The notes under the pieces are model-generated. The model worked only from the letters and a program-made list of their open reading frames with translations, made no database searches and had not been told where the DNA came from. This document shows, piece by piece, positions 28,917-34,338 of a stretch of 64,000 nucleotides of DNA; within the stretch, counting starts at the first letter, position 1, and every line of letters starts with the position of its first letter. Origin of the DNA: Flavobacteriaceae bacterium NBU2973. Lineage in GTDB: Bacteria > Bacteroidota > Bacteroidia > Flavobacteriales > Flavobacteriaceae. Location: assembly GCA_026162565.1 (NCBI GenBank), contig JAOEIQ010000001.1, positions 62,001 to 126,000 on the forward strand. Direction: 5' to 3'. A program made the translations under genes and the position numbers.

Positions 28917-29906
28917 ATGTATCCTTTAAGAAGAAACAGGCGCTTAAGAGCGAATGAAGCCATTAGAAGTTTAGTTCGTGAGACAATAATCACACCTAAT
29001 GATTTTTTAGTACCGCTTTTTGTGGTTGAAGGCAAGGGCATTAAAGAAGAAATCGCTTCTATGCCAAATTACTATCGTTACAGTCTTGACTTATTAGAAA
29101 ACGAAGTAAAAGAACTTTGGAAGCTTGGTTTAAAATCTGTATTACTTTTTGTAAAAGTTCCTGATAACCTCAAAGATAACAAAGGTACTGAAGCTCTAAA
29201 CCCAAACGGACTCATGCAACGTGCTATTAAAACCGTAAAAAATAGTTGTCCAGATATGTTAGTGATGACAGATGTTGCGCTAGATCCTTACTCGTCGTAT
29301 GGTCACGATGGTATTGTTGAAAATGGCATGATTATAAATGACGAAACAGCAGATGTACTAGCAGAAATGAGTGTGTCGCATGCTGAAGCTGGCGCCAATT
29401 TTGTAGCACCAAGTGATATGATGGATGGTCGTATTCTATCTATTCGTGAAGCGCTTGAAGATGCCAATTTTTTAAATACAGGCATTATGAGTTATTCAGC
29501 AAAATATGCTTCTGCATTTTATGGCCCTTTTCGTGATGCACTAGATTCTGCTCCTGTTAATATGGTAGAAGTACCAAAAGACAAAAAAACCTATCAAATG
29601 GATTTTGCCAATAGATTTGAAGCCATTCGAGAAACTGAAATGGATATTGATGAAGGTGCAGATATCGTTATGGTAAAACCAGGAATTGCCTATTTAGATA
29701 TTGTTCGTGAGATAAAAAATGAAGTTGATGTTCCTGTTGCAGCCTATCAAGTATCTGGTGAATATGCAATGATTAAAGCTGTATCAGAAAAAGGTTGGCT
29801 AGACCATGATGCCGTAATGTTAGAACAGCTAACAGCAATTAAACGTTCTGGAGCAGATATAATTGCGAGTTACTTTGCCAAAGATGTTGTAAAACTTTTA
29901 TATTAA
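28917..29906 (+). CDS. hemB: Delta-aminolevulinic acid dehydratase (porphobilinogen synthase)
   Basis: 329 residues. Condenses two 5-aminolevulinate to porphobilinogen. Schiff-base lysines are in SYSAKYASAFYGPFRDA and DIVMVKPGIAYLD. The metal site reads TDVALDPYSSYGHDG, with A/D/D where the zinc enzymes have three cysteines, so it belongs to the zinc-independent, magnesium-type class. It is the last gene of the operon, starting one base after the hemF stop. Confidence 0.97.
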   Translation: MYPLRRNRRLRANEAIRSLVRETIITPNDFLVPLFVVEGKGIKEEIASMPNYYRYSLDLLENEVKELWKLGLKSVLLFVKVPDNLKDNKGTEALNPNGLMQRAIKTVKNSCPDMLVMTDVALDPYSSYGHDGIVENGMIINDETADVLAEMSVSHAEAGANFVAPSDMMDGRILSIREALEDANFLNTGIMSYSAKYASAFYGPFRDALDSAPVNMVEVPKDKKTYQMDFANRFEAIRETEMDIDEGADIVMVKPGIAYLDIVREIKNEVDVPVAAYQVSGEYAMIKAVSEKGWLDHDAVMLEQLTAIKRSGADIIASYFAKDVVKLLY

Positions 29907-29996
29907 ATCTTCAATTTTTAGATTGTTTTTGTTGTTAACAGAAATAATGCTCAATTTCTGAAACCCTTATTTTACAGACGTTTCAAGCATTAATTA

Positions 29997-30058
29997 GGTT
30001 AATGCTAGGTTAAGAGTGCCCTTTTTTGAGTTATTTAGAAATCTTCGTTCTAGATTTG
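29997..30058 (+). promoter_or_regulatory. Tandem GGTTAA operator plus promoter, site 1
   Basis: Two direct GGTTAA copies (29997-30002 and 30008-30013) are spaced 11 bp, one helical turn, as for OmpR/PhoB-type regulators. TTG (30026-30028), 22 nt and TAGATTTG (30051-30058) give a proper Bacteroidetes promoter. Site 2 at 32495-32556 has the same operator and exactly the same distance (38 bp) from the end of the second copy to the -7 element. Confidence 0.65.
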
Positions 30059-30073
30059 TACTATCATCAATCA

Positions 30074-30119
30074 GTGCTGAACTTTTACATTGAGCTAGTC
30101 GAAATGAGTTTCAGTATCA
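30074..30119 (+). repeat. Interspersed repeat flanking a small ORF, copy 1
   Basis: GTGCTGAACTTTTACATTGAG...TTCAGTATCA matches 30249-30295 with few differences. It can fold (CTGAA with TTCAG, CATT with AATG). It belongs to a TGAGC-AGTCGAAA type of interspersed sequence; an interrupted relative is at 13037-13097. Confidence 0.75.
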
Positions 30120-30134
30120 TTAAAATCAAATAGT

Positions 30135-30230
30135 ATGAGAACTTTAAACAACGATTTAATTACAGAAAGATTACAAGAAAGTAATTCGTACAACTGGAAT
30201 TCAAAGAGACGTTACAGATCAATTAAGTAA
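30135..30230 (+). CDS. Possible 31-residue peptide
   Basis: ATG 30135 to TAA 30228-30230, encoding MRTLNNDLITERLQ and a basic end (SKRRYRSIK). Upstream are the GGTTAA promoter (start of transcription near 30064) and repeat copy 1; downstream are repeat copy 2 and a terminator at 30310-30345. No strong ribosome-binding site is seen. It may be a real small protein, a decayed gene or part of a small RNA; coding is not certain. Confidence 0.35.
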   Translation: MRTLNNDLITERLQESNSYNWNSKRRYRSIK

Positions 30231-30248
30231 AAATGAATTCATCAACAC

Positions 30249-30295
30249 GTGCTGAACTTTTTACATTGAGCGAGTCGAAATGAGCTTCAGTATCA
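30249..30295 (+). repeat. Interspersed repeat flanking a small ORF, copy 2
   Basis: Second direct copy of 30074-30119, one base longer, just before the terminator. Confidence 0.75.
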
Positions 30296-30309
30296 ATCAA
30301 CCAATTTAA

Positions 30310-30345
30310 GAGCATAATACCTTTTTAGGTGTTATGCTCTATTTT
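30310..30345 (+). terminator. Intrinsic terminator of the 30.06-30.34 kb transcript
   Basis: GAGCATAATACC (30310-30321) pairs with GGTGTTATGCTC (30328-30339) over 12 bp with one G-U pair and is followed by a T-rich tail. It closes the small transcript ahead of the histidine kinase gene. Confidence 0.7.
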
Positions 30346-30385
30346 ATCAATTACGATTCTTAATTTTAAGCGAATCATTTACAAC

Positions 30386-31783
30386 ATGAAGAAAAAAATC
30401 AACGCATTAATTATGGCATCTATCCTTGGATTAATAGCATTATCTATTATTCAAGGCTATCTAATTAATAATACTTATAAATTAAAAAAAGATGTGTTTT
30501 TAGAAGATACGAAGCGTTCTATTTTTCGTTTTGATAATGATCTTCCTGTTGTAGACTCTATTTATGATAAAATTGGAGAACATTTATTATCAAAAATATT
30601 CGAATATAAAACTCAACAAATTGACAAATCTGAATTATTAAACGATATAATGAGTGTAACAGATTCAGTTAATCAGTTATTTATAAATGAATATCAAAAA
30701 GAGTTTAAAAAGCGAGGTGTTACTTACGATATAAAATATCAAAAAAGATTAAAATCATTAATCTTATTGGACAGCATAAAAAATGACACACTGTACTTTA
30801 AAAATAAAACTTCTAATACTCAATTTTTATTAGGAGAGTCATTTGAACCCAATAAAGAATATGGCGTTAATAATTCTCAAACTGAAACAGATTTTAGCAG
30901 AAGTTATTTAGATAATGGTATTTCCAAAACAATAGATTTTAATATTAGATTAACGACTCAAGATTATCTAGATATTAATGATTGGACTCGATTAGTTTTG
31001 AGACAAATGTCAGGTATCTTAGCACTCTCAATATTAATATTTGCCGTTGTTTTAGGGCTATTATATTATGCAATTAAAAGTCTAATTACGCAAAAGAAAA
31101 TTGCAGATATAAAAACAGACTTCGTTAATAATATTACACATGAACTTAAAACACCATTAGCAACATTAACATTAGCAACTAAAATGCTTAATAAGGATGA
31201 AGTGAAACAGCATCCTGAAATAGTTAATAATACTATTAATACGATTGAGCGTCAAAACCAACGTCTACAAAAACTTATAGACCAAGTACTTAATAATAGT
31301 CTTGGCTATAATGAGATTAAACTCAATAAAGAACTTATAATCGTAGAAAATTACATTAATACAGTTTTAGATGATTTTAAATTATCTCTAAAAAACAAAG
31401 AAGTTACTATTAATCGGGAGTTTTCAATTACAAAAAAAGCGATTACCGTAGATAAGTTTTTTATGACAACTGCTCTATTAAACATACTTGAAAATGCCGT
31501 AAAATATTCTGAAGATGATTTAGTAATAAACTGCAAGATAGAAAGTGAAAAAAAATTATTAATCTCAATAGAAGATAATGGGATTGGTATTTCAGAAAAA
31601 TACCAAAAACAGATATTTGATAAGTTTTTTAGAGTTGGAAATAAGGAAATTCATAATGTAAAAGGACTTGGGCTAGGACTATATTACACTAATCAAATTA
31701 TTAAGGCGCATAACGGAACTATCACACTTAATAGTAAAGAAGGCCAAGGAACAACATTTATAATCACTATTCCATTTAATTAA
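30386..31783 (+). CDS. Sensor histidine kinase, RprX-like
   Basis: 465 residues from ATG 30386 (MKKKINALIM); the frame is open further upstream, but that stretch overlaps the terminator. TM1 (about 8-25), an extracytoplasmic sensor region of about 185 residues, TM2 (about 216-238), H-box NNITHELKTPLATL, N-box LNILENAVKYS, G1 DNGIGIS, F-box FDKFFRV and G2 GLGLGLYYTNQI. Partner of the regulator that starts 8 bp downstream. Confidence 0.94.
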   Translation: MKKKINALIMASILGLIALSIIQGYLINNTYKLKKDVFLEDTKRSIFRFDNDLPVVDSIYDKIGEHLLSKIFEYKTQQIDKSELLNDIMSVTDSVNQLFINEYQKEFKKRGVTYDIKYQKRLKSLILLDSIKNDTLYFKNKTSNTQFLLGESFEPNKEYGVNNSQTETDFSRSYLDNGISKTIDFNIRLTTQDYLDINDWTRLVLRQMSGILALSILIFAVVLGLLYYAIKSLITQKKIADIKTDFVNNITHELKTPLATLTLATKMLNKDEVKQHPEIVNNTINTIERQNQRLQKLIDQVLNNSLGYNEIKLNKELIIVENYINTVLDDFKLSLKNKEVTINREFSITKKAITVDKFFMTTALLNILENAVKYSEDDLVINCKIESEKKLLISIEDNGIGISEKYQKQIFDKFFRVGNKEIHNVKGLGLGLYYTNQIIKAHNGTITLNSKEGQGTTFIITIPFN

Positions 31784-31791
31784 TAAAACCC

Positions 31792-32478
31792 ATGAAGCAC
31801 ATATTATTAGCAGAAGATGATTTAGATTTCGGGAATATTTTAAAACAATATCTCGAGATTTCTGGGTATCAAATTACGTGGGCTAAAGATGGACAAGAAG
31901 CGCTTGAGTTTTTTAAAAATGGTAATTTTAATATTTGTGTTTTTGATGTTATGATGCCTAAAATAGATGGATTTACTTTAGCTGAAAAAGTAATAGATAT
32001 AAATCCGGAAACACCTTTTATTTTTCTAACAGCTAGAAAAATGAAAGAAGATAAAATTAAAGGGTTAAAATTAGGTGCTGATGATTATATAGTAAAGCCA
32101 TTTGAGGCAGATGAATTGGTGCTTCGATTAAGTAACATTTTAAAACGTACCGAAAAAGTTGCCAGTCAATTGCCTCAAGAATCTATTATAAAAATTAGTG
32201 AATATAATTTTGATGCAACACGTTTAGAATTATCACACAATGATTACAAAAAGCAACTAACGCAAAAAGAAGGAGAGCTTATTCTCTTTTTATTTAATCA
32301 TAAAAACCAATTACTAAAACGTGAAGACATCTTAAAAGCTGTATGGGAAAATGATGATTTTTTCTCCGGAAGAAGCATGGATGTTTTTATAAGCAGGCTT
32401 CGCAAATATTTTAAGCAAGACTCTTCAATTTCTATAGAAAGTATTCGTGGTGTAGGCCTAGAATTCAAAGTACGTTAA
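31792..32478 (+). CDS. OmpR-family response regulator, RprY-like
   Basis: 228 residues. The receiver domain (1-120) has the acidic pair EDD (8-10), the phosphorylation site in NICVFDVMMP, T-A in FIFLTARK and K in YIVKPFEADEL. The C-terminal winged helix (about 130-228) has LTQKEGELILFLF and GRSMDVFISRLRKYF. Its likely targets are the two flanking promoters with tandem GGTTAA at 11-bp spacing; direct repeats with that spacing are how OmpR/PhoB proteins usually bind. Confidence 0.95.
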   Translation: MKHILLAEDDLDFGNILKQYLEISGYQITWAKDGQEALEFFKNGNFNICVFDVMMPKIDGFTLAEKVIDINPETPFIFLTARKMKEDKIKGLKLGADDYIVKPFEADELVLRLSNILKRTEKVASQLPQESIIKISEYNFDATRLELSHNDYKKQLTQKEGELILFLFNHKNQLLKREDILKAVWENDDFFSGRSMDVFISRLRKYFKQDSSISIESIRGVGLEFKVR

Positions 32479-32494
32479 TAGAATTTATTAAGTA

Positions 32495-32556
32495 GGTTAA
32501 CGCTAGGTTAACGGTCTTAATTTCTTCGTTTTTAATAAAATTACGCTATAGATTTG
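32495..32556 (+). promoter_or_regulatory. Tandem GGTTAA operator plus promoter, site 2
   Basis: GGTTAA at 32495-32500 and 32506-32511 (11-bp period), then TAGATTTG at 32549-32556. No TTG lies 17-23 nt ahead of the -7 element, which suggests that the promoter needs an activator. It drives the gene at 32605-33102. Confidence 0.65.
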
Positions 32557-32604
32557 TAGTATCAAAATCAATAAACGAACAGTAAAATTTTAAAACAAGT
32601 AATC

Positions 32605-33102
32605 ATGTCAAAAACAATCACAACATTAGTAATCGCTTTTTTATTTACAATTACAACAACTGGACAATCAACTCCAGAACCACCAAAACCACCAACAACT
32701 TATAGTTCAACTCACAGTAGTTCTTATTCTGTAAGTAAAACAGATGACGATTTACGTATTAAAGCGCGATTCCATAAATCGAGATTTAATACCATAAAAT
32801 CTATGCTCATCGATAACTTAGGTGAAGAAGGTTTAACTAAAAGCGAAAGCACTTTTAAATGGTCTCATGGCTCTGATAGCTTTGAATGTAAATTAAGTAA
32901 TACAAGTTTAAGATTGTTTCTAGATTATGAATCGAGCAATAGTAACTTTATTAGTCATGTTGAAGAGTTGGCAACAAATCTCAAATATGCCGTTTCTGGA
33001 GGCAATCCTGAAGATGACATTAAACGTGCCGAAGATGATGTTGCCAGAGCAAAAGTTGAACTTGATCGGGCTAAAGCTAGATTGGAGAAATCTAAAAACT
33101 AA
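32605..33102 (+). CDS. Small exported coiled-coil protein, target of adjacent regulator
   Basis: 165 residues with a signal peptide (MSKTITTLVIAFLFTITTTGQ). A Pro/Ser/Thr-rich stretch (22-48) follows, then a region of about 80 residues of mixed alpha/beta character, and a C-terminal charged heptad helix (about 136-165: IKRAEDDVARAKVELDRAKARLEK) predicted to form a coiled coil. No family is recognised. It has its own promoter with the GGTTAA operator and its own terminator. An envelope-stress role fits the context but is inference. Confidence 0.8.
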   Translation: MSKTITTLVIAFLFTITTTGQSTPEPPKPPTTYSSTHSSSYSVSKTDDDLRIKARFHKSRFNTIKSMLIDNLGEEGLTKSESTFKWSHGSDSFECKLSNTSLRLFLDYESSNSNFISHVEELATNLKYAVSGGNPEDDIKRAEDDVARAKVELDRAKARLEKSKN

Positions 33103-33219: not shown

Positions 33220-34338
33220 ATGGGATTATTAATTTTCTACGGAGTTATATCTATTTTCTTTTCATTTTTATGTTCTATTCTTGAGGCTGTACTTTTAAGT
33301 ATAACACCAACATTTATTAATGTAAAAAAGAAAGAAGGCAAAGCTTATGCAACCAACCTTGAAGAGCTTAAAAAAGATGTAGATAAACCATTAATTGCTA
33401 TACTTACACTTAATACTATTGCTCATACTGTTGGTGCAATTTTAGTTGGTGTGCAAGCAAAAGTAGCTTACGCTGAATTATATGGTTCTGAAACACAAAC
33501 TATTTTAGGATTTGAAATTACTGAAGATCTTATGGTTGGTATTGTTTCTTCTATAATGACAATATTAATTTTAGTTGCATCAGAAATTATCCCAAAAACT
33601 ATTGGAGCGACTTATTGGAAACAGTTGGCTAATTTTACATCTAAAGCGCTTAATGTTTTAATTTTTCCTTTAAAATGGACAGGAATTCTTTGGGTACTAC
33701 AATTAACAACTAAGCTAATTGGTGGTAAAGGCCATGGAAGTGTGTTAAGCAGAGAAGGCTTCATCGCTATGACAGATATTGCAGAAGAAGAAGGTGTTTT
33801 TCAAGAATCAGAAAGTAAGGTCATTAGAAATCTTTTAAATTTTAAAGAGATAATGGCTAAAAATATCATGACACCAAGAACTGTTATGAAAGCTGAAGAT
33901 GAAAACACAACCGTTGAAGATTTTTTTAATAAAAATATGAATCTTCGTTTTTCAAGGATTCCAATATATTCTGACGATCAAGATAATATTAAAGGCCTTG
34001 TTTTAAAAGATGAGATTTTTAAAGAAATGGCTTTGGATAATGGTCATAAAAAACTATCAGAAATTAAACGAAGTATTATTATTATAAATCGTGATATGCC
34101 TATTCCTGAAGTCTTCGAGAAACTAGTTGAAAGCAGAAATCACATGGCTTTAGTTGTAGATGAGTATGGTTCTATTAGTGGATTAGTAACCATGGAAGAT
34201 GTGATAGAAACGCTTTTAGGACTTGAAATTATGGATGAAAGTGATAATGTCTCTGACCTACAACATATGGCTAGAAAAAGCTGGGAAGCTAGAGCAAAAA
34301 AGCTAGGTATTATAGAAGATGAAAATCCAGATGAATAA
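33220..34338 (+). CDS. CNNM/CorC-type hemolysin-family membrane protein with CBS pair
   Basis: 372 residues. The N-terminal DUF21/CNNM membrane domain (about 1-165) has LEAVLLSITPTFI, TLNTIAHTVGAILVG and SEIIPKTIGATYW. The cytoplasmic CBS pair (about 190-335) has VIRNLLNFKEIMAKNIMTPRTVM, SRIPIYSDDQDNIKGLVLKDEI and MALVVDEYGSISGLVTMEDVIETLLG. Family members act in Mg2+/Co2+ homeostasis. The C-terminal CorC_HlyC domain is not present. Its stop overlaps the next start (TAATG). Confidence 0.92.
   Translation: MGLLIFYGVISIFFSFLCSILEAVLLSITPTFINVKKKEGKAYATNLEELKKDVDKPLIAILTLNTIAHTVGAILVGVQAKVAYAELYGSETQTILGFEITEDLMVGIVSSIMTILILVASEIIPKTIGATYWKQLANFTSKALNVLIFPLKWTGILWVLQLTTKLIGGKGHGSVLSREGFIAMTDIAEEEGVFQESESKVIRNLLNFKEIMAKNIMTPRTVMKAEDENTTVEDFFNKNMNLRFSRIPIYSDDQDNIKGLVLKDEIFKEMALDNGHKKLSEIKRSIIIINRDMPIPEVFEKLVESRNHMALVVDEYGSISGLVTMEDVIETLLGLEIMDESDNVSDLQHMARKSWEARAKKLGIIEDENPDE

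Follow-up and report, generated by a model that had tools for sequence, protein, structure and literature searches.

A conserved tandem GGTTAA operator and a leader microprotein gene in a probably autoregulated two-component locus of Flavobacteriaceae bacterium NBU2973

In the genome of Flavobacteriaceae bacterium NBU2973, the genes of a two-component system lie between two promoters that are each preceded by the tandem repeat GGTTAA-N5-GGTTAA, and the question is whether these repeats are operators of the regulator encoded between them. The DNA analysed is a stretch of 64,000 nucleotides (contig JAOEIQ010000001.1, positions 62,001 to 126,000; hereafter the window), in which the order from 5' to 3' is hemB, operator 1, a leader, the kinase gene, the regulator gene, operator 2 and the gene of an exported protein, with all features from operator 1 onwards on the forward strand. 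Comparison of related loci leads us to propose, with a probability of roughly 0.8, that this is a positively autoregulated, probably envelope-sensing two-component circuit with a leader microprotein and an exported protein. The regulator most likely activates both its own operon and the gene of the exported coiled-coil protein, because the promoter is conserved ahead of orthologous operons, was found there again in a blind scan, and is linked to a single clade of regulators.

The operator pair in its own genome

A sequence-only reading of this DNA had placed exact copies of the repeat at 29997–30013 and 32495–32511, each followed at the same distance (38 bp) by the -7 box TAGATTTG. Both repeats are exact and the spacing is equal: the box begins 38 positions past the last base of the second repeat at both sites (37 nucleotides (nt) between), at 30051–30058 in promoter 1 and, by direct sequence, at 32549–32556 in promoter 2. 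The whole-genome motif scan proposed in that reading was run: the 3.05-Mb genome contains no exact copy besides these two (2 on the forward strand and 0 on the reverse; reversed control, 0). With up to 2 mismatches allowed, the operator and -7 box at fixed spacing occur at 2 sites with no third, while the reversed control gave 2. From the base composition of the window, 0.72 tandem repeats and 0.0005 composites are expected by chance in 3.05 Mb; since 0.72 copies are expected per genome, the bare repeat is by itself unremarkable. Promoters 1 and 2 lie within a 78-nt direct repeat that is 73% identical, so that one promoter may descend from the other.

Conservation ahead of orthologous operons

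Of 199 Flavobacteriaceae genomes, own genome included and one per genus, 10 contain the exact composite and 3 others the reversed pattern. A cut at 214 bits, placed by eye between 216.5 and 206.7, defines the 25 genomes whose orthologs of the regulator are closest, and these include all 10 composite genomes. The overlap has a hypergeometric chance of 1.5e-10, or 1.2e-9 without the own genome; none of the 3 reversed-control genomes is among those 25.

In these genomes a kinase gene adjoins the ortholog in 26 loci, the window included, and a 27th (G040b) has no kinase open reading frame (ORF) directly ahead. With one mismatch in the -7 box tolerated at or near the expected spacing alone, an operator followed by a -7 box at 36–38 nt precedes the kinase in 20 of the 26; 17 of these operators have at most one mismatch and 3 have two, and several of the -7 boxes have one. 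In genome G147 the operator and -7 box stand ahead of upstream genes of the same operon, bringing the total to 21 of 26 loci in which, as in an autoregulated two-component operon, the operator lies ahead of its own operon and is kept among orthologs. The kinase start in relatives is usually about 50–105 nt from the operator start. Among the other ORF starts in these loci, 10 of 204 have an operator (at most one mismatch), each of them with a -7 box at 36–38 nt; they belong to the G147 serine-hydrolase gene, to a protein of 528–530 amino acids (aa) in four genomes and to five genes of a repeated cluster in G040. Both promoters are carried by G059, G147 and G194.

A blind scan with the pattern alone, using one genome per species, gave at least 115 stretches, of which 80 loci with 84 sites were analysed. 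By the phylum given in the record titles, 76 of the 84 listed sites are in Bacteroidota and 8 in other phyla. After 10 of the 76 had been set aside because the piece ends within 800 nt, 59 of the 66 judgeable Bacteroidota sites listed precede a kinase–regulator operon or an exported-protein gene, as against none of the 8 listed from other phyla. The 59 comprise 43 sites with the regulator downstream, 6 with a kinase where the piece ends before the regulator, and 10 with the exported-protein gene, so that a kinase or regulator gene lies downstream of 49 of the 66. Among the 43 listed sites with a regulator, the kinase starts within 700 nt in 42, and the regulators share 43–87% identity with that of the window. 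The matches listed also include such operons, by record title, in the distant lineages Bacteroidales, Weeksellaceae and Pedobacter, as well as two Psychroserpens and two Winogradskyella loci that have both sites, 2267–2411 bp apart (2498 in the window). The small local regulon proposed from the window is thus supported by comparison across loci.

Some operators stand elsewhere in the related loci. In L070, L075, L077 and L078, the operator-preceded gene of the 528–530-aa protein adjoins a gene of 1068–1071 aa on the opposite strand. G040 (L071, L110) has ten operator copies (at most two mismatches) in two clusters, the first with five operators ahead of the repeated-cluster genes, as if the regulon had been amplified. 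Further tandem GGTTAA repeats occur in G194 and G134, on the upstream side of the kinase operator at a distance of about 100 nt, and in G195, where they abut that operator (L059, L067, L079).

Promoter structure

Alignment of 69 distinct promoters, chosen for exact repeats, extends the half-site to GGTTAAYG, with Y in 97% and 98% and G in 90% and 77% of the two half-sites. A -33 TTG at 17–23 nt from the -7 box occurs in 8 of the 69, compared with 10.8 in shuffles, and is thus not enriched. Promoter 1 has a TTG at 30026–30028 with a 22-nt spacer; promoter 2 has none, as the sequence-only reading correctly stated. Passages of PMC9723704 assign TAnnTTTG, in a mapped flavobacterium, to the primary sigma factor as its -7 box, spanning -12 to -5. 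With the box of promoter 1, of the sigma-A type of Bacteroidota, placed accordingly, the operator would be centred near -58 (site about -50 to -66), which would fit an activator touching RNA polymerase from upstream. The kept spacing and the lack of -33 TTG enrichment support the view, already taken from the window, that these promoters are of the activation type.

Identity of the regulator

The regulator gene (31792–32478, 228 aa) follows the gene of a sensor histidine kinase (30386–31783, 465 aa, with HisKA and HATPase_c domains). Its product matches the receiver domain PF00072 (Response_reg, 98.5 bits) and the winged-helix domain PF00486 (Trans_reg_C, 58.5 bits), and belongs to the OmpR/PhoB group. 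The period of the operator repeat, by direct sequence, is 11 bp. A tree of 78 regulators, without that of G054, whose ORF is split in two, places the 71 from these loci in a single clade apart from 7 paralogs (support 0.94); the 71 include four from loci without the standard operator (G097, G126, G155 and G040b), and the paralogs number only 7. In the helix RSMDVFISRLRKYF, which we take to be the recognition helix, 68 of the 71 regulators have arginine where all 7 paralogs have lysine; its consensus, GRSMDVFISRLRKYF, is exact in 29 of the 71.

The best NCBIfam match of the regulator is RprY (NF051850), at 232.6 bits against a cut-off of 370. Four other operator-linked regulators also score below the cut-off (195.5–232.2 bits), in a comparison in which the RprY-like paralogs themselves were unscored. 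Since the regulators form a separate clade and all five scored members fall under the RprY cut-off, we take the family to be a sister family of RprY: it resembles RprX/RprY of the Bacteroidetes in being OmpR-type with RprY as its best NCBIfam match, but forms its own clade with its own operator and target. For Porphyromonas gingivalis RprY, shift assays on the protein's own promoter are described in PMC3646045, the passages of which give no RprY binding motif. Taken together, the single clade, the co-occurrence in genomes and the blind scan favour the view, first suggested by the position of the gene between the two sites, that this regulator is the likely binder, and the 11-bp period and the comparison likewise favour an OmpR-type operator.

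The leader and its microprotein gene

Between promoter 1 and the kinase lies an ORF of 31 codons (30135–30230; MRTLNNDLITERLQESNSYNWNSKRRYRSIK). Its relatives occupy the corresponding position in Psychroserpens luteolus, three Winogradskyella loci and G147; L149 and G059 lack it. In 49 aligned copies the ratio of nonsynonymous to synonymous changes (pN/pS) is 0.44 in frame, compared with 1.29 and 1.15 in the shifted frames, and it is 0.34 for the six operator-linked copies alone, whose differences are mostly silent. Seven residues (M1, L4, W21, N22, K24, R25 and R26) are invariant in all 49; the copies from the hand-chosen loci described below were collected with a profile, a procedure that itself favours conserved residues. 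As judged from these ratios and the comparison with relatives, the 31-codon gene is under purifying selection.

The ORF is flanked by two repeats (30074–30119 and 30249–30295) that leave it intact, were found by repeat search, and have related short copies elsewhere in the genome (copy 1). They are presumably of the repetitive extragenic palindromic (REP) kind and are here called REP-like; their predicted folding is not more stable than that of shuffles (z +0.6 and -0.5), and we regard them as filler. A terminator-like hairpin of 14 bp with a T-rich tail (ATTTTAT) follows 3' of the ORF at 30309–30340 (z -7.6). The Psychroserpens leader has a hairpin at the same place (z -5.8, weaker tail), and those of three Winogradskyella loci are quite different in sequence (L139, z -2.9 for a longer piece; L187, -8.5; L186, -6.7). 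All five leaders in which the microprotein lies directly ahead of the kinase thus have a hairpin, the T-run being weak in L115. Since the hairpins of relatives differ in sequence at the same place, the structure is kept and the sequence is not. In L149, which lacks the ORF, a hairpin is retained (z -6.9, no T-run). Rfam gave no match within 29880–32700 (E up to 1) or in 11 related loci (gathering scores).

A short transcript at 30.06–30.34 kb had been proposed from the window sequence. It is plausible, but promoter 1 serves more than a stand-alone short transcript, its counterpart in relatives being the promoter of the kinase–regulator operon, and the earlier claim missed both the gene inside the transcript and the operon behind it. 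Since the leader holds a microprotein gene, a terminator-like hairpin and two REP-like repeats, the probable products of promoter 1 are a short mRNA and, by read-through, transcripts that extend into the kinase and regulator genes. We also considered that the window leader might contain a decayed serine-hydrolase gene, a 511-aa gene of the beta-lactamase fold being present behind the G147 leader. This was rejected: G147 has the micro-ORF ahead of its 511-aa gene too, so that no decay need be assumed.

The exported protein

The gene behind promoter 2 (32605–33102) encodes a protein of 165 aa with a hydrophobic N-terminus (by eye), a proline-rich linker, a small alpha/beta domain and a long charged C-terminal helix. 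By sequence it is found in 11 of 199 genomes, and relatives lie behind the regulator in loci of Winogradskyella, Psychroserpens, Kordia, Tenacibaculum and Flavobacterium. It matches no Pfam or NCBIfam family, and a search of the related-loci kind with the exported protein gave no relatives. No CpxP/Spy (LTXXQ) match was obtained for the window protein (Pfam, E up to 0.1) or for three relatives scanned. A structure model with a mean predicted local distance difference test score of 85.4 gave no Foldseek match at E up to 0.001; the best VIA-align Z was 7.8, in the range where possibly only a common arrangement is shared, and we claim no fold family. In G147, G026 and G057 the gene string also holds genes of the beta-lactamase fold. 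An envelope role of the system is therefore likely. The next gene (33220–34338) encodes a CNNM/CBS protein, GldE-like with a score under the cut-off, and is found at the same place in G059 and G147.

The microprotein family elsewhere

With a profile of six copies the microprotein was detected, at E up to 0.1, in 153 of the 397 Flavobacteriaceae genomes searched; 31 of these rows have a best E above 1e-3, which is about the chance level, leaving 122 at 1e-3 or better (hand count). The members are 28–31 aa long and basic, and follow the pattern MRTL..NQIT....SK.Y.WN.KRR[YF]R. The genome of NBU2973 has one copy. A draw across the phylum gave it in 4 of 296 genomes. These four belong to the same family; for 272 of the genomes drawn no kinship was shown. 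Two members scanned against Pfam and NCBIfam matched no family at E up to 10, and a literature search found no paper on the operator or the microprotein, sequence-letter terms being a weak test and most subscription journals lying outside its coverage.

Twenty microprotein loci (L256–L275) were chosen by hand, partly for arrays, so that the 14 of 20 with tandem arrays of 2–4 copies are not a family rate; they hold 43 copies in all. Upstream of the first copy, TGTAAC-N16-CGTCT is present in 15 of the 20, with a spacer of 16 in all 15, compared with 1 of 146 other ORF starts. The remaining five differ: a TAnnTTTG box stands in L268 and L270, TCTTCT replaces CGTCT in L267, L261 has CGTAAC, and in L259 the first copy is truncated. 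We take TGTAAC-N16-CGTCT to be a form of promoter for extracytoplasmic function (ECF) sigma factors. Passages of PMC9723704 report for F. psychrophilum a motif of the ECF type, SM6, whose -10 region contains CGT; it bears on the arrays elsewhere only and not on the window.

An upstream element like ACTTTGNNATGCATAGTAC accompanies the TGTAAC-N16-CGTCT promoters. The genome of NBU2973, despite its single copy of the microprotein, holds 14 instances of TGTAAC-N16-CGTCTAT when one mismatch is allowed; 2 are exact, and the reversed control gave 4. The neighbours of the arrays, by eye, include ExbD-like, Hsp20-like and helicase genes and, in L267, ECF-sigma-like genes. A second small protein (ISRRL or ISKRI, then LT) seems to follow several arrays (L258, 4817–5005; L260, 4380–4619; L273, 4332–4529; coordinates in the orientation of the array).

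Alternative explanations

The 73% likeness of the promoters over 78 nt, and an expectation of nearly one bare repeat per genome, might point to a chance pair or to a recent duplication of one promoter. This is hardly credible, as both promoters recur in G059, G147 and G194 and in the four Psychroserpens and Winogradskyella loci. The 10 genomes with the exact composite, the survey of the 26 loci and the blind scan likewise argue against chance. Another regulator, for example an RprY-like paralog, might bind the operator, leaving the local regulator a bystander: a regulator match at E up to 1e-45 exists in 196 of the 199 genomes, mostly from paralogs near 200 bits. We regard this as very improbable, because the exact composite occurs in none of the 174 genomes without a close ortholog, because it stands ahead of such operons in the three distant lineages among the matches listed, and because of the arginine–lysine difference in the helix, although the helix is similar outside this position and lysine is also found in 3 of the 71 regulators. 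Repression in place of activation has a precedent in P. gingivalis RprY, described in passages of PMC3646045 as a probable repressor. It is an improbable, if slightly better, candidate for this locus, where a site upstream of the promoter, at about -50 to -66, with kept spacing and no -33 enrichment, has the pattern of an activator.

The most serious alternative concerns the micro-ORF, which may be a cis-acting leader peptide whose translation decides termination at the hairpin ahead of the kinase (attenuation), the peptide itself being inert. The layout of an attenuator, a short ORF and then a terminator-like hairpin, is present here; the order ORF–hairpin–kinase is found in all five leaders with the ORF directly ahead of the kinase, with Winogradskyella hairpins unrelated in sequence, and leader-peptide attenuation has been proposed, in passages of PMC9723704, for amino-acid operons of F. 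psychrophilum. However, the family elsewhere forms tandem arrays (14 of 20 loci) under an ECF-like promoter (15 of 20), with no kinase among the listed ORFs directly behind the arrays (neighbours by eye), and the L149 hairpin persists without the ORF. Conservation, moreover, is at the protein level over most of the peptide, and the 49 aligned copies contain no run of regulatory codons. We therefore consider an inert leader peptide unlikely, though well ahead of the alternatives above. For the microprotein a bolder reading, to which we give a little under even odds, is that it belongs to a large and so far unnamed family made from tandem arrays under ECF-sigma promoters, that in this lineage one copy was captured as the first product of an envelope two-component operon, and that the peptide would act in trans (for example on RNA, the ribosome or RNA polymerase) as a general stress effector.

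Several observations weigh against the proposal of an autoregulated circuit. Five of the 26 loci do not fully fit: neither G029 nor G090 has a -7 box match to go with its operator, an operator is lacking in G097, that of G126 has two mismatches and no -7 box, and G155 (L083) combines an exact operator with a -7 box that lies closer by about one helical turn, at 27 nt and not 37. In the blind scan, no such operon is seen at 7 of the listed, judgeable Bacteroidota sites. The two surveys overlap, as 3 of the 84 sites are already in the family set, and the labels were generous, any kinase at E 1e-3 or any regulator of at least 100 bits being counted. The microprotein lies behind only 6 of 101 operator sites scanned, window included and duplicates from the overlap of the surveys among them, and the strong hairpin ahead of the kinase may uncouple promoter 1 from the kinase and regulator genes in this organism. 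Finally, the window holds no excess of the bare tandem repeat when up to two mismatches are allowed (8, compared with a shuffle mean of 10.0); the signal therefore lies in exactness, spacing and location.

Proposed mechanism and relation to known systems

In the proposed circuit, the membrane kinase would phosphorylate the OmpR-type regulator, two molecules of which would bind GGTTAAYG-N3-GGTTAAYG head-to-tail, with the centre about 58 bp upstream of the presumed start. The bound regulator would recruit sigma-A RNA polymerase to a -7 box without a -33 element. From promoter 1 a leader mRNA for the 31-aa microprotein would be made, probably ending largely at the hairpin by partial termination, and read-through past the hairpin would yield the kinase and the regulator, whose amount the hairpin would limit. 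Promoter 2 would yield the exported coiled-coil protein as a dedicated effector, which may also exert feedback.

CpxRA with CpxP and PhoPQ with MgrB are enterobacterial systems that invite comparison. They share with the present locus an autoregulated OmpR-type system, an exported accessory protein and a small protein under the system's own control. Unlike CpxP, the exported protein of the window and its scanned relatives have no CpxP/Spy match, and MgrB is membrane-bound, unlike the window microprotein, which is hydrophilic and basic by eye. The PhoP boxes of enterobacteria and Bacillus are tandem hexamers with an 11-bp period; the direct-repeat geometry is the same, but the half-site of the window is GGTTAAYG, positioned at about -58 and combined with a TAnnTTTG box.

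To our knowledge, few regulator motifs are known in Bacteroidota. The present analysis would provide an exact operator and a spacing rule, with targets named, for a two-component family that recurs across the phylum. It also describes a microprotein family that is present in about a third of the Flavobacteriaceae genomes searched and absent from the protein libraries searched. Two different stress-type promoters appear to feed this family, which makes its role directly testable.

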